From: Dichetophora obliterata | Taxonomy: Eukaryota; Arthropoda; Insecta; Diptera; Sciomyzidae | NCBI GenBank assembly: GCA_963920525.1 | Contig: OY986436.1 | Span: forward strand, 7,552,501 to 7,616,500 | Length of the DNA stretch: 64,000 nucleotides | Reading direction: 5' to 3' | Part shown: piece after piece, positions 1 to 47,632 of the stretch | Layout of the letters: each line of letters opens with the position of its first letter | Position numbering within the stretch: the stretch's first letter is position 1 | Translations under genes and position numbers: made by a program | Notes under the pieces: generated by a model | The model's input: the letters and a program-made list of their open reading frames with translations, nothing else | The model's database searches: none | What the model was told of the DNA's origin: nothing

Positions 1-2454
1 AAAAATTTCGGATCCGTACAATAAGGTGGGGACAAGATACGTTTTAGCTAATAACATTCTTATGTGAAAGGGGGTGAAAAACTGTGTGGCCCATAGGCTA
101 CGGAGCATACCATAAACTTTTCCTACAGTGATGTTGACATGATTCGTCCAATCTAAAGTGCTGCTGAAGGTAATACCCAAATTTTTTGCCGTTTTTACAA
201 CTTCAATACATGACCCATTTATCGTAACGTCCGGAAAGGGCAAAGAAGAGTTATGTTTTCTCGTTATAATTAAACATTTTGACTTATTTGGGTTTATGCT
301 TAAGCCATTAGCGGAAGCCCAATCGTAAATTTTACACAAATTAGCATTCAGACTATCAACACACGTGGTAATATCACATTTGCGACAGCTAGTATACAGT
401 TGTACATCATCAGCGTACATTTGTATACCACAATTTTGCAGCACAGTTGGTAAGTCGTTTATATAAACCGAAAATAAAAGAGGGCCCATTACAGAGCCTT
501 GAGGAACGCCACGGTTTACAGGTAAGAAATTGGAAGTAACGCTGCCTATATTAACGGCTTGTGATCTGTTTGTGAGATAAGAGGTCATTAGTCGAGTTGC
601 AGTGGCGGAAAAATTAAACACATTTAATAATTTCAAACATAAAATTTGGTGATCAACCGTGTCGAAAGCTTTCGAATGATCTAGCAAAACCAAGAAACTG
701 ATTTCATTGCGATCGAGGTTATTTCGAATTTCATCGCTGACGTCAAGTAGAGCAGTCACGCAACTACGCTTAGGTCGGAATCCTGACTGTCTGTCAGTTA
801 GCAGTTTATTGTCCAAAAGAAATTTGTTTATTTGGTAGTACATCAGCGTTTCAAAAACTTTTGATAGATATGGTAAAATTGCTATGGGGCGGAATTCATT
901 ACCAGTTTTAGGGATGGGAATAATTTTAGCTTTTTTCCAAATAGCAGGGAATTCTGATTTCGTTATGATGGTATTGAAAATGTTAATAATGAAAGGGGTT
1001 AGAGCAGGAAGAAGTAACTTAAAAAACCTGGGATGTATTTCATCGAAACCGACGGCATTAGATTTAATCTCTAAGCAACTTCGCAGTACTTCTGTATATT
1101 CAACGCATTGAAAATTAAAAGCTGAGTACGAGTTGATAGATCTCTGAAAGATGCGACAACAGTTGACACTGGGCGCTGACATAGGTATATCTATAAATTT
1201 GTTATTTAGAGCCTCGACGTCTACGCTAGTGTCTGTAAGCGAAATATTTCTACCAACTCCAATTTGCCGAATAATATTCCACTTCGTTTTGCTGCCTATG
1301 GCAGAGCTAAATTTAGATTCATAATATGCTAACTTGGCAATTTTCACCGCCCTGACCACATTGTTTCTGCATATGCGGAAAATATTATAACGCTCGGGTG
1401 TTTTGAGACGTTTCCATTTATTATACGCTGCGTCACGTTTTTTCATTAAACTTTTAAGGGTACTGGAAAACCAGGGCCTTAGAGAGTGCTTTACAACTTT
1501 AGTTTTAAGAGGAACATGTTTTTCAAATAATGAATTGACGTTACGTTGTAGGAAATCTAACTTATCATTTACTGATAGCATGTGATAAATTTCTGTCCAG
1601 TCGACGTGATTTAGCTCTGTCTGAAGAGAGCTAAAATCTATATTTGTAAAATCTCGGTATGTTATTTTTTGCTCTGGTATTAGCAGCTGAAAATTATAGC
1701 AAAGAAAAATCAGGTCATGCTTGGAAAAAACAGGAGCAGATAACTGGTCATAAAGTAAGACTTTATCATTATCACCGACAAAAAAGAGGTCTAGCAGCGA
1801 ATTTCTATTTTTGGAAAAGTGTGTGGGTGTGGTGCAGTTTGGCGACGTAAGACCAAGTGCACACATATCATCAGATAAATGAGTTTCAACCAATAAATCA
1901 CAATTAAAATCGCCACAAATTATGATGTCAGCATAGGAGCTTACCACCGATTCAATTTTCAACATTAAGTTTTCTGTATGGACATAACGATTTGGCCTAT
2001 AAACTGTGCCGACAAGTAGTTTTTTGGATTCATAGATTATGTCAACAAATAGGAATTCAATATTATCTTCAGAGTTTGATTTACTGATTAAGTTGCATGT
2101 AATACCATCTTTAACAAAAATTGCAACCCCACCGGCATGAGACTCTCGATCCGCACGAAATGATCTATAACCCTTTACACTAAAGACACTATTTTGAACA
2201 GAAGGCTGAAACCATGTTTCAGATACACAAATTATATCCATGTTTGAGTTTTCAAAAATGTACCGAAACTCATCAATTTTATTATTTAAACTTTGCGCAT
2301 TAATATGACATACCTGTAGTCCCGTCGCTTGCCTGCTTAATATTCGAATTAAAGCATAGAGATTGTCTCTAGAACAACAACGACCGTAATTATTCGAACT
2401 CACAACGGATATGGTTTGAGATAAAAAGACGCGTATTTGCAGCACAGTTAACAT
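1..2454 (-). CDS. LINE ORF2: AP-endonuclease and reverse transcriptase (partial at window edge)
   Basis: This would nick target DNA and copy the element RNA into it (target-primed reverse transcription). The ATG at 2454 follows an in-frame stop a few codons upstream. The N-terminal endonuclease starts at about residue 50 (motif INAQSLNNKIDEF, then SETWF) and has GDFN at about residue 181. Reverse transcriptase blocks are LLDHSKAFD, VPQGSVMGPLLF (about residue 650) and the catalytic YADD (residues 680-683). The last codons at the edge read LVPTLLYGSEIF, a block typically just after the RT core. I checked the reading frame at the start, at GDFN, at VPQGS, at YADD and at the left edge, and all five agree. 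The 818 codons therefore appear open, with the C-terminus outside the window. Confidence 0.88.
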   Translation of the reverse strand, partial: MLTVLQIRVFLSQTISVVSSNNYGRCCSRDNLYALIRILSRQATGLQVCHINAQSLNNKIDEFRYIFENSNMDIICVSETWFQPSVQNSVFSVKGYRSFRADRESHAGGVAIFVKDGITCNLISKSNSEDNIEFLFVDIIYESKKLLVGTVYRPNRYVHTENLMLKIESVVSSYADIIICGDFNCDLLVETHLSDDMCALGLTSPNCTTPTHFSKNRNSLLDLFFVGDNDKVLLYDQLSAPVFSKHDLIFLCYNFQLLIPEQKITYRDFTNIDFSSLQTELNHVDWTEIYHMLSVNDKLDFLQRNVNSLFEKHVPLKTKVVKHSLRPWFSSTLKSLMKKRDAAYNKWKRLKTPERYNIFRICRNNVVRAVKIAKLAYYESKFSSAIGSKTKWNIIRQIGVGRNISLTDTSVDVEALNNKFIDIPMSAPSVNCCRIFQRSINSYSAFNFQCVEYTEVLRSCLEIKSNAVGFDEIHPRFFKLLLPALTPFIINIFNTIITKSEFPAIWKKAKIIPIPKTGNEFRPIAILPYLSKVFETLMYYQINKFLLDNKLLTDRQSGFRPKRSCVTALLDVSDEIRNNLDRNEISFLVLLDHSKAFDTVDHQILCLKLLNVFNFSATATRLMTSYLTNRSQAVNIGSVTSNFLPVNRGVPQGSVMGPLLFSVYINDLPTVLQNCGIQMYADDVQLYTSCRKCDITTCVDSLNANLCKIYDWASANGLSINPNKSKCLIITRKHNSSLPFPDVTINGSCIEVVKTAKNLGITFSSTLDWTNHVNITVGKVYGMLRSLWATQFFTPFHIRMLLAKTYLVPTLLYGSEIF

Positions 2455-2627
2455 TATTATTAACTTTTAATATAAGAAATAAAGAATTAAAAGAAATAAA
2501 AATAAGAAAAGAAGTAAGTGTACATATTACGCAAAGAAATGGAATGAAGGAAGCAAATAGAAATAAAAAGAAGATAGATAGGTTAAAGAAAGACAAATTA
2601 AATAACGCAAAAACATAAAACTTAAAC

Positions 2628-3575
2628 TTAGGCAGGAACAACTTCATCTTCCGGGCATCTTTCACAAATTCCTTCGGCGGCAAGAACATGGCTGTGCAGC
2701 TCGCTTTCATTTTTGATGCGAATACTTTGGGAGCCTTTGTGTAGCCGAATGTGTAAACACCCTCGGACGGTGAAAGCATTGTAAATACTTTTTCGTTTCT
2801 TGTAGGTAATAGCAGCATGTAATAGCTTTCTAGTATCAGCGCTGAGGCACTCGTGGATGTAGATATTGTGATCTGCTTCAAAGCCTGCATTGATCAGATT
2901 CACGGCTTTCTTAACACGTCTGCGGTAGTCACCAAATGCTTTCAAAACCCGATTTCGGTCATGCGGAGTGTAGAACTTGACGATGATCACAGGGTTTGAA
3001 TTTTGATTTGTTGTTCTCTGCCTTACCCGAAAAATATCTTTTAATTGCGGTGGTAAAAACTCAATAGAGTGACATACAAGGTTAAAGATGCTCTTAATAT
3101 TTTCGCCTGTCATTAAAGGCACTCCAAAAATAATTGCATCGGAAGAGTTATGATTTTCACAGCTGTTGTTGGAATTTGATGTCGAAGAGCATCGCTTGAG
3201 TTCATCGGTTAGGGCATCACAACGCGAGGAAAGAAGTTCGATGCGATTTTCAAGTGAGCTTAATTTAAGTTCGTAATCACTAAAATTGTTTTTGATGGTT
3301 GCAACTTCGCTCTTAAATTCGTTGCTCAATTTAGTCTCGACGTTCGCAATTTCACTCGAGAGACGCTTGAAGAGGATGTCGGAGTGCTGTCGAAGACGGT
3401 CCTCTAGCTGTTCCACTTCAACTTTCAACTTAACACTCAAACGCTCTTCTAACGCATAGAGTGCAGTACTAAAAGAGGTTAAGCTGCCACTCTCTGACTT
3501 AGGTGTGTTCTCGTTTTTAGAGCGAAGGCCTTGTTGGCGTAGTTGTTCACGTGTTAGTCTTGGACTCGGTGTCAT
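2628..3575 (-). CDS. LINE ORF1 protein with coiled coil and FP25K-like C-terminal domain
   Basis: A 315-residue protein starting at an ATG, just upstream of the endonuclease/RT ORF. Residues about 40-135 are rich in heptad-like L/V and charged positions (for example ALEERLSVKLKVEVEQLED), which suggests a coiled coil for trimer or multimer formation. Residues about 165-305 resemble the C-terminal domain of baculovirus FP25K-like proteins, which also occurs in ORF1 of some insect LINEs. Supporting motifs are PVIIVKFYTPHDRNRVLKAF, IYIHECLSADTRKLLHAA and HKGSQSIRIKNESEL. The expected role is RNA binding and RNP assembly. No CCHC zinc knuckles are visible. The family match is from memory of motifs and was not tested by a search. 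Confidence 0.8.
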   Translation of the reverse strand: MTPSPRLTREQLRQQGLRSKNENTPKSESGSLTSFSTALYALEERLSVKLKVEVEQLEDRLRQHSDILFKRLSSEIANVETKLSNEFKSEVATIKNNFSDYELKLSSLENRIELLSSRCDALTDELKRCSSTSNSNNSCENHNSSDAIIFGVPLMTGENIKSIFNLVCHSIEFLPPQLKDIFRVRQRTTNQNSNPVIIVKFYTPHDRNRVLKAFGDYRRRVKKAVNLINAGFEADHNIYIHECLSADTRKLLHAAITYKKRKSIYNAFTVRGCLHIRLHKGSQSIRIKNESELHSHVLAAEGICERCPEDEVVPA

Positions 3576-4682: not shown

Positions 4683-5959
4683 TTGGGGGTTGGAATTAGT
4701 TTTAAAGGTATTCTAAGAGATGGCGTAACTATCAATAGATCGCATCGGGCACACCTGTGACTATATTCATTTCAAAGCACATTGTGTAAGCTTCATTTTT
4801 CAGTATGTGTCATTCCACTGAAGTGTAAACAACATATATTTTTTTCTCTGTGAACATGTCGACTTTCGTTCCAACAAAACGCAATGTGCGGGAAGGTTTA
4901 CTTTTGTGCTTCCATTTGAAGAAAAAAGCGGTTGAAGCACAACGCACGCTTACTGAGGCTTACGGGGACTATGATGCTCCATCGATTTCTACTTGTGAGT
5001 ACTGGTTCCGTCGGTTTAAAAGTGGTGATTTTGATACGGAAGACAAAGAGCGTCCGGGCCAGCCGAAAAAGTTTGAAGATGAGAAATTGGAGGCTTTGCT
5101 CGATGAAGACCCGTGTCAAACCCTTCAAGAATTGTCAGAATCATTGGGAGTCGACTTATCAACGGTCGGCAAACGCTTGAAGGCCATGGGAATGATTCAA
5201 AAGCAAGGAAATTGGGTGCCGTACCAGTTGAAGCCGAGAGACGTTGAACGGCGATTTTGCATGTGCGAACAACTGCTTCAACGGCATAAAAGGAAGATTT
5301 TTTTGCATCGTATTGTCACTGGCGATGAAAAGTGGATCCATTACGATAATCCTAAGCGAAAAAAATCGTGGGGACCACCCGGCCATGCATCAACATCGAG
5401 GGCCAAGCCGAATATTCATGGCGCCAAGCTTATGCTGTGTATTTGGTGGGATCAGAAGGGTGTCGTGTACTATGAGCTGCTAAAACCTAACGAAACCATC
5501 ACTGGGGAACGCTACCAACAACAATTGATGCAATTGAGCCGAGCATTAAAGGTTAAACGGCCGGAATATGCCAAAAGACACGACAAAGTGGTTTTTCAAC
5601 ATGACAACGCACGGCCACATGTTGCAAGAACCGTCAAGGAAACGTTGGAGGCGCTGAATTGGGATGTGCTACCCCACCCAGACATAGCCCCTTCCGACTA
5701 CCACCTATTCAGATCGATGACGCATGGCTTGGCTGAGCAGCGCTTCACTTCTTACGAGGATACCAAAAAATGGGTCGATTCGTGGATTGCCTCAAAAGAC
5801 GAATCGTTCTTCCGGCGCGGAATCCATATGCTGCCAGAAAGATGGGAAAATGTTGTAGCTAACGATGGACAATACTTTGAATAATATACATTGTACCGTC
5901 GTTTCTAAATAAATGCTCAAAAACCGAAAAAAACCTTTAAAATTAATTCCAACCCCCAA
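4683..5959 (+). mobile_element. Complete mariner transposon with TIRs and TA target duplication
   Basis: The termini are TTGGGGGTTGGAATTA at 4683 and its complement ending at 5959. Extending inward gives about 27 bp of inverted repeat with one mismatch. TA dinucleotides at 4681-4682 and 5960-5961 are the target duplication. The 1277-bp length is normal for mariner. It contains a single uninterrupted transposase reading frame. The near-perfect TIRs point to a fairly recent insertion, but the transposase carries an internal four-residue deletion (see the CDS entry). Confidence 0.95.
4856..5884 (+). CDS. Mariner transposase, full length but with DD30D spacing
   Basis: A cut-and-paste transposase of 342 residues starting at ATG 4856. 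An in-frame GTG two codons earlier is not a plausible start. The N-terminal helix-turn-helix half contains FCFHLKKK-type sequence, WFRRFKSGDFD and ERPGQPKKFED. The catalytic half has D157 (VTGDEKWIHYDN), D250 (FQHDNARPH) and D281 (IAPSDYHLF). In mariners the last two aspartates are separated by 34 residues. Here there are 30, because four residues normally present between LPHP and DIAPSD are missing. That is a clean 12-bp in-frame loss. The C-terminus (RGIHMLPERWENVVANDGQYFE type) is complete. It most resembles the mauritiana-like subfamily. The deletion sits in the catalytic loop, so I infer that activity is lost or altered. Confidence 0.95.
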   Translation: MSTFVPTKRNVREGLLLCFHLKKKAVEAQRTLTEAYGDYDAPSISTCEYWFRRFKSGDFDTEDKERPGQPKKFEDEKLEALLDEDPCQTLQELSESLGVDLSTVGKRLKAMGMIQKQGNWVPYQLKPRDVERRFCMCEQLLQRHKRKIFLHRIVTGDEKWIHYDNPKRKKSWGPPGHASTSRAKPNIHGAKLMLCIWWDQKGVVYYELLKPNETITGERYQQQLMQLSRALKVKRPEYAKRHDKVVFQHDNARPHVARTVKETLEALNWDVLPHPDIAPSDYHLFRSMTHGLAEQRFTSYEDTKKWVDSWIASKDESFFRRGIHMLPERWENVVANDGQYFE

Positions 5960-20400: not shown

Positions 20401-21239
20401 TCTTGGTGTACTATAGGACGGGACGATTTATATAAAATAACATATTTCGATACCGCGCCATCGAAATTTTTATCCCTCTTTTCATAACGTACAAAAAATT
20501 CTTTTGCGACACACAGTCGTTTCTTTTTTTTTTTTTTTTTTTTTTTTGATTCGCCCGGAGGTATGAAATCTTGCAAAGATACGTATACGCGTCCTATACG
20601 CATGCACGATTTACATCCTAAAATCTGCCCGAATCAGCCGGGACAGATAGAATGCACCTACGTACTAAAACATACCCCCTATTGGCAATTAGGATTTTCC
20701 ACTAAGCACATTAATTGGCTTTTCAGCGGAATTTAAAAATTGAATATATATAAAACGCGTATTTAAATAAGCAACATCGAATTAAATAATAATAATTATC
20801 AATTTAAGGTACCCGAAAAACAATCAAAAACACTAAACTCATTTTAACTGGTTTGCGGCCATTGTCAAACCCAAGGACCTACGTGGATATGAGATAAATC
20901 TCATATCCGCCAAATCAAAATCCCAATTAGTTGGATATGCATTTGGGCCAACGCAGGCGTAAACTTGTGTGGAAAAGAGATATACTCTGACACACCAAAT
21001 CAGGTGGTAGTGTGAGTTCAGTCTAATTTCAAATCAGGAAACCATGTGAGCACATAAATCCCAATTCGATTTAAAATTAAAATATTGAATAATTAAAAAG
21101 TAAGTTTTAAAAACAATTCATATTTGATGGTGCTTACTTTATAAAACATAATATCGAGACAAAAAAGATAAACAGAACAATCTCAACTACCAATATTATA
21201 TTGTTATAAAACTGCGTTAGGTATAATAGGATGAAGTTA
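20401..21239. other. Non-coding stretch with a poly-T tract and a near-perfect hairpin
   Basis: This holds a run of about 26 T (20,523-20,548). It also has a hairpin at about 20,886-20,909 with 11-bp arms (GGATATGAGAT and its complement) around an AA loop. I see nothing else I can support. Confidence 0.6.
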
Positions 21240-42825: not shown

Positions 42826-42984
42826 ACTTTTAAAACTTTTTAATTTTCATCCTACATGTAGGACGGGCTGCAGTATGAGCTTTCGCACATCCTAAATGTC
42901 CGTCCGACCTGTCAAATCCATCCTACATGTAGGATAGTCCGAAACTCCATATTAGCATGAAAATTGCTATATAGCAGTAAGGCG

Positions 42985-43023
42985 CACAGTGTGACGACCC
43001 CATATAGCGAGTGGCCAAAAATA
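42985..43023 (+). promoter_or_regulatory. Transib left end: 23-spacer recombination-signal-like sequence
   Basis: Heptamer CACAGTG (42,985-42,991), a 23-bp spacer (42,992-43,014), then nonamer CCAAAAATA (43,015-43,023). The heptamer equals the consensus V(D)J heptamer. The nonamer shares the central CAAAAA with the consensus nonamer. The expected role is transposase binding and cleavage at the heptamer border. The spacer contains about 11 extra bases (around CCCCATATAGC) compared with the right end. Confidence 0.85.
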
Positions 43024-43079
43024 GAAGGAGTTGCCCTAGGATCATGAAATTTTGTGGAAATAAGTTTTACGGTAAAGGA

Positions 43080-43790
43080 ACTATTGTCACAAAATTTTTA
43101 TGAAATTGGATGAATGCCACGCCCACCTCCTATATAACCGAAATCGTTAATCTGGTATATTTTCCCAAAAAACAATCCCAGATAAATAAAATTTGGTACT
43201 CATAGTTCTTTTGTAGCCATAAATAGTTAGTATGAAAATGAATCATATCAGCCGACTATCGCGCCCACCTCCCATATAATCGAAATCGGTAATCTGGTGC
43301 ATTTACCCAAAAAATCATCTCAGACCAATGAAATTTAACACACACTGTTCTTTTGTAGCCATAAATAGTAAGTGTGAAAATGAATTATATCGGCCGACTA
43401 TCACGCCCACCTCCCATATAACCGAAATCGGTAATCTGGTGCATTTACCCAAAAAATCATCTCAGACCAATGAAATTTAACACACACTGTTCTTTAGTAG
43501 CCATAAATAGTAAGTGTGAAAATGAATCATATCGGCCGACTATCACGCCCACCTCCCATATAACCGAAATCGGTAATCTGGTGCATTTACCCAAAAAATC
43601 ATCTCAGATCAATAAAATTTAGCGCACACGTTTCTTTTGTTGCCATAAATATCTCGTGTAAAATTTAACAAAATCGTCCGATTAGCACGCCCATCTCCCA
43701 TATTACCGAAATCGGTAATCTGGTATATTTACCCAAAAAATTATTCCAGACCAATAAAATTTAGTACATATAGTTCCTTTTTTGGATAAT
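43080..43790. repeat. 142-bp tandem array next to the Transib left end
   Basis: The marker GCCCACCTCC starts at 43,131, 43,263, 43,405 and 43,547, with the variant GCCCATCTCC at 43,689. Spacings are 132, 142, 142 and 142 bp. Each unit contains CCATATAACCGAAATCGG and ACCCAAAAAATCATCTCAGA. The middle copies are nearly identical. The array lies inside the element, between its end and the 3' end of the transposase gene. Confidence 0.92.
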
Positions 43791-43892
43791 ATTCAGGTTT
43801 TTTTTTATTTTAGATTTAGTTCAACAAGTCTTTTTTAACAAATAAATTTAACAATTTTTTTTATTATTAATACTACAAATAATATACAAAAT

Positions 43893-45557
43893 CTAATCAC
43901 TAAATGAGCTTTCGTCACTAGAAAATTCTATTTCTGGGAAAAATAAATTATTGACATCCTGTATTTCTCTCTCTTGTTGCAATATGTATTTCTCTATTTC
44001 ACTGCCATGCTTCGTTTTAATTGTTTTTTGTTGTCTGTTTCTAGCTATTTTTGGCTCTGACTGTAGCAATAAAGACACAAATAGATCCTTATTGCAAAGC
44101 TCTCTACTAATTTTTCTGGTGTGGCTTAGACGATTCTTTCTTATTAATTTGTGCATACATTCTAATGCTTCTTCAGATAGCATGCCAATTGGAGAAGATG
44201 CATTTTTAATAATTTCAGATCCATGTATCAACAGTTTGTGTACTGTGGCAGGCATATAGTACCAGGGGTATAAATTTCTGTACATAGCAGATGTTTCATT
44301 CAAAAGAATTTCGAAATTTTCCAAATGAATTGCCTTGCCACAAGAAATTATTTTTAAAATTAAAGAAAAATTGTTTATTAAATTGAAGTCAAGATTGGTA
44401 ATATTTGCTGACGTCTGAACATTTTCAAAGAAACGTCTGGCCGTATTACCATCATTCGAAGTACCATAACCAGTCCTTACATTATCAATTATCAATCCCA
44501 TTTCTTCCTTAAACTTTAATTGAATTTTAAGTTTATTTTCTTTAAAAATTGGGTCCTGTTGATTAACTCTCCACATTTTTAGAGGAAGCCGATAGGCAAT
44601 ATGTAATAGACACTCAAAACATTTAATCTTGGCGTGAAGAGTAGAGAGACCAAATTTATAATACTCTTCTTTCGTTTCTCTTTGTGATACTGCTACAGAA
44701 TTCATTTCCGTAGGCTTTGCTCCACATAAATAGCATGAACAAGCAGCAGTATTGTTAGTTAACACATTAATAACAGCTCCATCAACCATAGTTAAGTTCA
44801 TTCTGAAATGAACATTAATATTTCCGGAGCTGTAAAAGTAACTCGAAAGATAATCTATTTCGGAGTTTATACTCGACTCTGTTTCTTTTATTAAATTTGC
44901 ATTTTCCTTCATAAAAATTAACCTAATGGGTCGACAAAATCTCGTAGATGAATGCATTTTATTTTCCCAAACAACATTTTCATCTGCCCAATCCAAAAAT
45001 TTTAAGGGAACTAAAGCAACAACAAATAAAAATTCATCAGTTGAACTGGCATCTGAAAACTTTTGCTTATAGACACTGTGTCCTGAGCTGCCATCAAATC
45101 TCCACTTACATTCTAATATTAAATCACTCTCAGTTGGTATTTTATACGATTCTATTAAGCTTTCTGCCGTTTTGTTAAGTAAATCCTGCAATGGAATTCC
45201 TACATGTGTTTCAGTTACTACAATAGAATCCGGTATTAAACTTTGTTTTTCATTTTTCAGTGCATAATATGAGGGAAAACAATCTTTATGGACTGAATTA
45301 ACAACTGATCTCATCATATTATATTTTCTTACAGAAAGATCCATATCAACATACAGAGCTAAAGCTTTGTGAACAGAAATTGTTGTGGTCAACGGATGAT
45401 CGGAAACTTTAATAGCAGCTCTTCTTATTTCTTCTGGGGACTTAATTGCAACAAGTTCTTCAACTTTCCTTCTTTTGGTTCTCTCACTTCCATCTTCGAA
45501 CGAAGTTTTTGGCCTACCTCTGCCACTTGCGGAAAATGCCCTGCTTGTGCTTGGTCC
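43893..45557 (-). CDS. Transib transposase, last exon (RAG1-related DDE core)
   Basis: 555 codons including the stop are open on the minus strand from an AG acceptor at 45,559-45,558. The first 60 residues are basic (SGRGRPKTS, RTKRRKVEELV). Diagnostic Transib blocks follow. KWRFDGSSGHSVYKQKF gives the first catalytic Asp (exon codon 155). STRFCRPIRLIFMKE comes next. LTMVDGAVINVLT gives the second Asp (codon 259). CSCYLCGAKPTEM is a zinc-ribbon-like CxxC. LSEEALECMHKLIRKNRLSHTRK supplies the catalytic Glu (within codons 462-466). These correspond in order to the DDE core shared with RAG1. The expected activity is cut-and-paste transposition with hairpin formation on the flanking DNA. With the upstream exon the protein has at least 653 residues, a normal Transib length. 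No stop or frameshift was seen. Confidence 0.93.
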   Translation of the reverse strand, partial: GPSTSRAFSASGRGRPKTSFEDGSERTKRRKVEELVAIKSPEEIRRAAIKVSDHPLTTTISVHKALALYVDMDLSVRKYNMMRSVVNSVHKDCFPSYYALKNEKQSLIPDSIVVTETHVGIPLQDLLNKTAESLIESYKIPTESDLILECKWRFDGSSGHSVYKQKFSDASSTDEFLFVVALVPLKFLDWADENVVWENKMHSSTRFCRPIRLIFMKENANLIKETESSINSEIDYLSSYFYSSGNINVHFRMNLTMVDGAVINVLTNNTAACSCYLCGAKPTEMNSVAVSQRETKEEYYKFGLSTLHAKIKCFECLLHIAYRLPLKMWRVNQQDPIFKENKLKIQLKFKEEMGLIIDNVRTGYGTSNDGNTARRFFENVQTSANITNLDFNLINNFSLILKIISCGKAIHLENFEILLNETSAMYRNLYPWYYMPATVHKLLIHGSEIIKNASSPIGMLSEEALECMHKLIRKNRLSHTRKISRELCNKDLFVSLLLQSEPKIARNRQQKTIKTKHGSEIEKYILQQEREIQDVNNLFFPEIEFSSDESSFSD

Positions 45558-45688
45558 CTAAATGAAAAATATTAAATATATAAAGTTATTGTTGGTAGAA
45601 ATCATTGAGTTTTAATTAAATATTCTCGGTTCAGTCATTTATATATTATTAAACCATGAAAATTAAATAACTTAAAGCGAGTTCCTAC

Positions 45689-45987
45689 ATCAAAACATTG
45701 TTGTTGTCCGCATACAGTTCTGCTTGCCTCAGAAAACTCTGGTATAAAAGTTGAGTGCAACCATTCCGAGTGATTTTTTTCAAAGATTCTTCTTGTTCGG
45801 TGGCAGCTATTCCACAGAGCTCCAAATCTTTTATGCATGAATTCCACTCTCTGGTTAAGTTTTCCCAAATTGATCCCATTTTCGCATTTGTTTGTAATAA
45901 ATTGTGTAACAGCTGTTTTTTTCTGCATCGAACTTGCTGCACTTAGCCACACGTCAAAAATTTCAATAACTTTTATTGGATGAGACA
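45689..45987 (-). CDS. Transib transposase, upstream exon
   Basis: 99 codons are open on the minus strand, read as VIEIFDVWLSAASSMQKKT and then VEFMHKRFGALWNSCHRTRR. A GT donor (GTAGGAACT) at 45,688 and the acceptor TTTCATTTAG ending at 45,558 define a 131-bp intron. Joining GAT to GGACCA keeps the frame exactly. Without splicing the frame hits a stop at 45,635. The exon has no ATG at its start. TTTATTTATTAG just before 45,987 looks like another acceptor, so at least one further 5' exon with the initiator Met is expected between 46,000 and 46,560. I could not locate it. Confidence 0.8.
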
Positions 45988-46569
45988 CTAATAAATAAAT
46001 TATGAATTTTTATACGCACTAATAAAATAATAATTAATTTCATACTTCTTTCGAAATTATTTTAATGGTTTTTTTCACTTTGAATTAATATTTACTCTTC
46101 ACTTAAACTTGTTCTGAAATTGTTTTTTGTTTTGTTTTGTTTTGTTTTTAAGACAACGGTTATTTTCATACTTGTTTTCATTGGCCTTAGTGAATCTTTG
46201 AATACCGTACAAAACGTTTCAATATAACCATATATTGCTGTACGCTAATAGTAGTTTAATTGAAAAAATAATAATACTAATCGTAATAAATGTTCATATA
46301 TACATTAAAAAAAATGAATATGAATATAATTATTAAATAAATGAAATGAAGAAACACCACGAACTCATTTTTATTTCAATGAGTGTATAACAATTTAATA
46401 TACCATATTAATTTTCTTAGTTGGCCAGTTTTCGTTGTAAGCAAACGATAAATGTTTTTTTACCTACGAATATATTAATATATTATTAGTAAGTCTATTT
46501 TTTACGGAAAGTGAAACTATTTTTTAGACATATAACAATGTAAACACTTATTTTTCAGTATATGTTGTA

Positions 46570-47165
46570 ATTTGAAATTTGTGAAAAAGTTGCTTTTTTC
46601 CCATATAAAATATGCTCATTTTCGCCAAAACATGCTTCACAAAAGTGAGCGTAAAGTCGTTATTATTGAGTTTCGGCAAACCAAATTTTGGAAATATGTT
46701 AAGAAAGTATTGATAAAAGACTTATTAAAATTTAAAAAAAAACAAAAATGCTTTTTTTCTTATATTTTGTCTTGAACTTTGTGAAAAAATTGTAATTTTT
46801 CCATATAAAATTGCTCATTTTCGCCAAATCAGGCTTCAGAAAAGTGGGCGTTTAGTCGTTATTATTGAGTTTCGGCAAACCATATTTTGGAAATATGTTA
46901 AGAAAGTATTGTTACAAAACATATTAAAATAAAAAAAAAACAAAAATACTTTTTTTCTTATATTCTGTTTTGAACTTTGTGAAACAATTGTAATTTTTCC
47001 ATATAAAATTGCTCATTTTAGCCAAAACATGCTTCAGGAAAATAGGCGTAAAGTCGTTTCTATTGAGTTTCGGCAAACAAATTTTTGAAAATATGTTAAA
47101 AAAGTGTTGTTGTAAACCATATTAAAATTTAAAAAAAAACAAAAATGCTTTTTTTTTATTGTTAC
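46570..47165. repeat. About 197-bp tandem array next to the Transib right end, three units
   Basis: Units contain CATATAAAATTGCTCATTTT, GTCGTTATTATTGAGTTTCG and a long A-rich tract (AAAAAAAAACAAAAATGC). Unit starts (TTTGTGAAAAA or a variant) are at about 46,578, 46,775 and 46,973. The array lies between the transposase 5' end and the right terminus. It is unrelated in sequence to the left 142-bp array. Confidence 0.88.
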
Positions 47166-47509
47166 TCAATGTTTTCGTTTTTTTAGATTTCGAGGACTTG
47201 TTCTTAGTTATAAATAATTTTTTTTTATGTTTGCATTTTAATAAATATTTTTTAAAAAAAAAAATAAATATATATTAGATATTGTCTTGCATATTTTTGT
47301 TACAAAAAATGTATGACTTTATAACAAAATATACAGTGTCAAACTGTAAAAAAATAAATTTATCATATTTTTAGGCGGGCATATTTAGGATGCTACTCCT
47401 CCATTATCGAAAAGATAAAGCAAAATACTTTTAATTTCAGAATAATGATACTCTGTACTATAATGATGCATATTTAGAATTACAATTTTATGACTTTTTT
47501 TTCTTGTCC

Positions 47510-47537
47510 TATTTTTGGCCGCACTCGTTACACTGTG
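47510..47537 (-). promoter_or_regulatory. Transib right end: 12-spacer recombination-signal-like sequence
   Basis: Read inward from 47,537: heptamer CACAGTG, the 12-bp spacer TAACGAGTGCGG, then nonamer CCAAAAATA (ending 47,510). The heptamer and nonamer are identical to those of the left end, and both are followed by G. The spacer is 11 bp shorter, almost exactly one helical turn. Confidence 0.85.
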
Positions 47538-47632
47538 AGGCGGTCCGTGGCAGGACAACGTCTTCCAGGGAATACTAATATTTTATATATAGGTTTTCAC
47601 TTCGGTCGGCAGTCCTCTCACTGCTATACTTT

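Follow-up and report, generated by a model that had tools for sequence, protein, structure and literature searches.

The stretch of Dichetophora obliterata DNA analysed here (64,000 nucleotides of contig OY986436.1, positions 7,552,501 to 7,616,500; called the window in the following) contains a Transib transposon at positions 42985-47537. Its gene lies on the minus strand, and its two ends carry the same heptamer and nonamer at unequal distances. The long end (42985-43023, plus strand) consists of the heptamer CACAGTG (42985-42991), a spacer of 23 bp, in which CATA occupies positions 10-13, and the nonamer CCAAAAATA (43015-43023). At the short end (47510-47537, minus strand) the identical heptamer (47537-47531) and nonamer (47518-47510) are separated by 12 bp. 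The element is flanked by the target site duplication AGGCG, with exact plus-strand copies at 42980-42984 and 47538-47542. Relative to this gene, which is read from the minus strand, the 12-spacer end is 5' and the 23-spacer end 3'. The initial annotation had described a Transib with a 23-spacer left end, a 12-spacer right end, a common heptamer and nonamer and an AGGCG duplication, and this description was confirmed.

End signals, arrays and transposase

Each of the two exact spaced patterns, with 23 and with 12 bp, was found once in the window. When as many as 3 mismatches were allowed, each pattern had three window matches, versus 1.24 and 1.15 expected. The word common to both ends extends to 12 bp (GGCCAAAAATAG); a shared word of at least this length occurred in 14 of 20,000 draws in which two window segments of 53 bp were picked at random. 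The spacer labels 12 and 23 hinge on the chosen start of the nonamer. For the left end, CCAAAAATA is the register with the best match to ACAAAAACC (6 of 9 bases). For the right end there is a caveat, as ACAAGAAAA is also present at exactly 23 bp and matches ACAAAAACC at 6 of 9 bases.

Two tandem arrays lie inside the ends. The first, at 43118-43781 (plus strand), comprises 4.7 units of 142 bp; five units contain CCCAAAAAA, one copy each. This word is oriented as the left nonamer, and the units might provide subterminal binding sites. Between one and six matches of the 142-bp unit were found per fetched copy of the family (L017-L039), so the number varies between copies. The second array, at 46571-47159 (plus strand), has three units of 198 bp.

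The main exon of the transposase gene (43893-45557, minus strand) encodes 554 amino acids (P0001) with the DDE residues D155, D259 and E466 and with GRP at residues 14-16. Upstream of it follow a putative phase-0 intron (gtagga ... tttag; 45558-45688, minus strand), read by eye from the sequence, and a further coding exon (45689-45980, minus strand) with an approximate 5' border and a start codon that was not located. The upstream exon is similar to the N-termini of relatives in blastp (P0036, E 2.5e-6; P0023, E 1.6e-5). P0001 itself matches the HzTransib chain 6pqn_A with an E-value of 1.3e-98, as a DDE transposase of the Transib/RAG1 type; no Pfam family was detected for it at E 1. Together with GC-rich 5-bp target duplications and heptamer-like termini beginning with CAC at both ends, this bears out the identity as a Transib. 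The closest named fly proteins are LOC131997013 of Stomoxys calcitrans (P0023, 56% identity) and LOC118749386 of Rhagoletis pomonella (P0017, 50% identity), a likeness that refers to the proteins. No relatives of the transposase were confirmed in the searched viral contigs or genome contigs.

Within 42985-47537 there is a single transposase gene with one long coding frame and the one upstream exon. No second long frame and, among ten other frames of at least 60 amino acids, no RAG2-like or other Pfam match above the cut-off was detected, with a RAG2 in small exons remaining possible. In this respect the element does not correspond to the RAGL/ProtoRAG type.

In the N-terminal part of the transposase, residues 14-40 carry GRP and, after it, a basic segment. 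With a loose regular expression, GRP was found in 84 of 121 proteins. When the full-length profile is used, this part is aligned, though weakly, to the GGRPR-containing region of the zebrafish RAG1 chain 3jbw_A, in order with the rest and upstream of the catalytic core.

Pairing of the ends in the genome

The assembly searched comprises 1.31 Gb in 76 contigs. CACAGTG and CCAAAAATA at a distance of 23 bp gave 358 exact matches (control: 3), and at a distance of 12 bp 188 exact matches (control: 0). Pairs were counted on contig C1 and the first 20 Mb of contig C2, where the listings of both ends are complete. In this region, 84 long ends and 52 short ones were counted. Inward pairs at a distance of up to 10 kb numbered 24, every one of them of the 12/23 type, and no 12/12, 23/23 or other-orientation pairs were present there. 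The 84 long ends belong to 100 listed ones; left out were those from C2:21.36 Mb on, which are 12 ends of a tandem array and four others, the last without a listed short end in reach. The array itself (C2:34542191-34625870) shows 12 listed copies of the 23-spacer end with the spacer GATCCCTCTCATAGAGATGGCGG in steps of about 7.4-7.7 kb, and its units carry a Transib-like end.

With a free spacer of 5-34 bp, 857 matches were found in the assembly (control: 25). The 100 listed ones had spacers of 23 bp (37), 12 bp (26), 18 bp (10), 14 bp (8), 11 bp (6) and other lengths (13); all 11 inward pairs among them were 12/23. Because these end searches fix the heptamer and the nonamer, a search with the protein P0001 was added, for which at least 97 matches were listed and only the best candidates scored. 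The nine family copies listed on C1, found by their transposase with at least 94% identity, were all inside a 12/23 pair. At least seven copies genome-wide, among those listed, have an intact frame of 554 amino acids without stop at 99-100% identity. Many more transposase copies with 41-70% identity were among the listed matches, some of them with long open frames.

A detailed set of 24 elements, including the copy in the window, was compared. The target duplications were exact in 18 elements, agreed in four of five bases in five and in two of five bases in one (L037). The exact duplications have a GC content of 74%. Whole or in pieces, the transposase is encoded by 11 of the 24 elements. For the 13 non-coding ones, alignment to the window copy is confined to the first 800 and the last 1,020 bases of the latter. 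These parts hold the ends and both arrays; no alignment falls in positions 900-3500. Coding and non-coding copies both keep the 12/23 lengths, which follows from the construction of the search, and the spacer bases vary. Within a family, both spacers begin with similar bases (TRACGAG here).

The check proposed in the initial annotation, namely if other copies keep the unequal spacers and the nonamer position, was thus positive. In view of the 24 of 24 pairs and the nine of nine coding copies listed on C1, the 12/23 arrangement is a trait of the family and not a private indel.

Related families and the long spacer

For 27 loci with other end types a partner end was accepted with at least four of five bases of the duplication, six of seven of the heptamer and seven of nine of the nonamer. 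Partners were found for ten loci, all of them combining a short with a long spacer, and for none of the 27 in the reversed control. Five loci had spacers of 23/11, four of 12/18 and one of 14/23; no pair was symmetric. The duplications were exact in L049, L052, L054, L060, L061 and L064 and agreed in four of five bases in L040, L042, L045 and L046. No partner reached the threshold for 17 of the 27 loci, where decayed, longer or single ends are possible. Candidates below the threshold were 12/18 in L048, L053 and L059, a 23/12 pair with exact duplication and decayed nonamer in L055 and a poor 23/19 pair in L041. In the short loci L001-L016 a credible partner was in reach only for L003 and L010, which are the two ends of one element. 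Hence, among the pairs observed, spacers are regularly unequal, but exact 12/23 lengths are not general.

The 12/18 family (L049, L052, L060, L061) is short and present in high copy number, with elements of about 0.75-0.95 kb. Its long-end sequence gave 427 genome matches with at most one mismatch (control: 0). Among 100 listed ones and 16 matching 12-ends, all eight inward pairs were 12/18, seven below 1 kb and one of 5.6 kb. Two neighbouring pairs of 18-spacer ends, 5.8 and 6.3 kb apart, had the same direction and were not inward. The initial annotation had spoken of one extra helical turn at one end; that this is the point of the asymmetry is not supported, given a family pairing 12 with 18 bp. 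The 14/23 locus, L064, is an element of 193 bp whose target duplication, GATTG, is exact.

Of the 100 listed 23-spacers, 85 were examined for CATA, and 69 of these have it at positions 10-13. The same position was seen in seven of ten groups of dissimilar 23-spacers (below 70% identity); the representatives of the groups have CATA nowhere else. This suggests that the block may be a recognised or bent site. The long spacer had been proposed to have grown from the adjacent 142-bp units. The unit was present in 23 of 23 fetched family copies and in none of the 27 loci of other end types, one of which (L054) has the 198-bp unit. As the other loci lack it, the 142-bp unit is an unlikely source of the spacer, and CATA is shared by dissimilar 23-spacers; the proposal is therefore not supported. 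A central CATA block was not found described in those parts of the literature on Transib ends that were searched.

Apart from the Transib, the window contains an Rfam match to the R2 retroelement RNA (20553-20758, minus strand, 57.9 bits) and an open frame of 351 amino acids (4829-5884, plus strand), which we take to resemble a mariner transposase.

Interpretation of the unequal ends

Transib5 of D. melanogaster and Transib2, TransibN1, N2 and N3 of A. gambiae are given as 12/23 (+/-1) asymmetric in PMC8355894, which credits these ends to its reference 8, taken to be Kapitonov and Jurka 2005. Asymmetric and symmetric ends are included in Transib subgroup II (PMC9435367), and most Transibs are symmetric (PMC8289069). 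The idea that a 12/23 pair was unreported for Transib could thus not be maintained. Because of the earlier families the ends are not new in kind; 12/23 Transib ends are already reported elsewhere and the element adds another case. The five families share with it the superfamily, the heptamer, the nonamer and the 12/23 (+/-1) ends, and are likened to it by description only. A family-wide count of pairs and Transib families with 12/18 or 14/23 ends were not found in the parts of the literature searched. The RAG1-like GRP module is likewise known, since an equivalent of the nonamer-binding domain with GRP is reported for both Transib subgroups (PMC9435367).

HzTransib of Helicoverpa zea (PDB 6pqn/6pqx) is unlike the element in its ends; according to PMC8289069 these are symmetric and have hardly any nonamer or none. 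Its resolved chain starts with residue 21, equivalent to residue 57 here, so that the element has 56 residues and the upstream exon before this core. Compared to the vertebrate RAG1/2 system with its 12/23 recombination signal sequences (RSS), the element differs as a transposon with no RAG2-like frame found and with sister families deviating from 12/23. ProtoRAG of amphioxus and AanRAGL share asymmetric bipartite ends (27/31, PMC8289069; 4/13, PMC9435367) and 5-bp duplications. They differ in carrying RAG2-like genes, and the second element of ProtoRAG is not an A-rich nonamer.

We consider it probable that the locus represents a recently moved, coding-intact autonomous Transib with a fixed 12/23 RSS-like pair, used by a transposase dimer that contacts the nonamers by its GRP module, with the short/long combination as an aid to pairing. 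In this mechanism the RNase H core of the dimer would bind both heptamers, and cleavage would proceed by nick and hairpin, as reported for HzTransib and RAG1; the 5-bp duplications, too, are taken from the HzTransib and RAG literature. The N-terminal GRP module would grip both nonamers, which differ in distance by about one turn, and the long spacer would be bent at the central CATA block. One short and one long spacer might help to join a left and a right end of the same element. The exact lengths would be specific for each family, because the sister families use 12/18, 11/23 and 14/23. The sequences show the anatomy, its conservation, the unequal pairing and the coding copies; we infer that GRP contacts the nonamer, that the long spacer bends and that a short end is preferentially joined with a long one. 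In addition, the cognate transposase would presumably need no RAG2.

Several observations weigh against this mechanism. The match to the nonamer-binding domain is weak, with a domain i-Evalue of 0.089 within the full profile, and a profile of the N-terminal segment alone found no RAG1 in the PDB. The exactness of heptamer and nonamer is built into the pattern searches, and 60 of the 84 long and 28 of the 52 short ends are without exact partner. The pairs of the family share descent, so that 24 of 24 are not 24 independent tests of a rule. From the numerous 12/18 family it follows that exactly 23 bp are not needed for the mobility of every Transib-type element in this genome. HzTransib, moreover, is described with symmetric ends and hardly any or no nonamer.

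Some of these observations fit an explanation that we regard as quite possible, if short of probable. The transposase would recognise the heptamer and the nearby spacer, the nonamer would be of minor importance and the 12/23 lengths would persist by common ancestry only. Besides the shared descent and the HzTransib ends, it is favoured by the movement of the 12/18, 11/23 and 14/23 families and by the TRACGAG-like first spacer bases at both ends, which fit contacts next to the heptamer. On the other hand, a nonamer-like word recurs in families with dissimilar spacers, at a short distance from one end and a long one from the other, and every partner found for the other end types was asymmetric. 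A symmetric 23/23 element, with ACAAGAAAA as the right nonamer and CCAAAAATA at 12 bp as incidental, appears very improbable to us. Of 11 coding copies, 10 retain ACAAGAAAA, which equals CCAAAAATA in its match to ACAAAAACC, and the A-rich TTAAGAAAA stands at that place in 10 of 13 non-coding ones. However, the match at 23 bp drops to a mean of 4.1 of 9 bases in the non-coding copies, whereas CCAAAAATA stays at 12 bp, the latter being a consequence of how the search was built. In other families, the short ends lack a word like CCAAAAATA (at least 7 of 9 bases) at 23 bp; theirs are found at 11, 12 and 14 bp. The 23/23 register of the right end is thus unlikely. In the short ends of L062 and L065 a second such word was seen at 21 bp. 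Chance, or an indel private to one copy, would be compatible with the single copy in the window and with the rate of shared 12-bp words in random draws. Against the spaced matches in the assembly and their controls, the 24 pairs and the nine coding copies on C1, it keeps practically no probability and the private indel was rejected.

A more general view, which we put forward with considerable doubt, is that Transib transposition in this lineage obeys a short/long rule like V(D)J joining. Several families, of which one includes intact coding copies, would pair 11-14 bp with 18-23 bp rather than two like signals, and the long spacer with its fixed central CATA block would be recognised or bent. 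The question bears on whether the 12/23 rule began in a transposon or later in vertebrates. With at least seven intact-frame copies, hundreds of ends and the sister families, end pairs of defined spacing are testable with the cognate transposase, and the central CATA block is a concrete feature for such tests. If the general view is true, the 12/23 rule would be a property of transposons that predates its use in immunity, the exact lengths being tunable by family.

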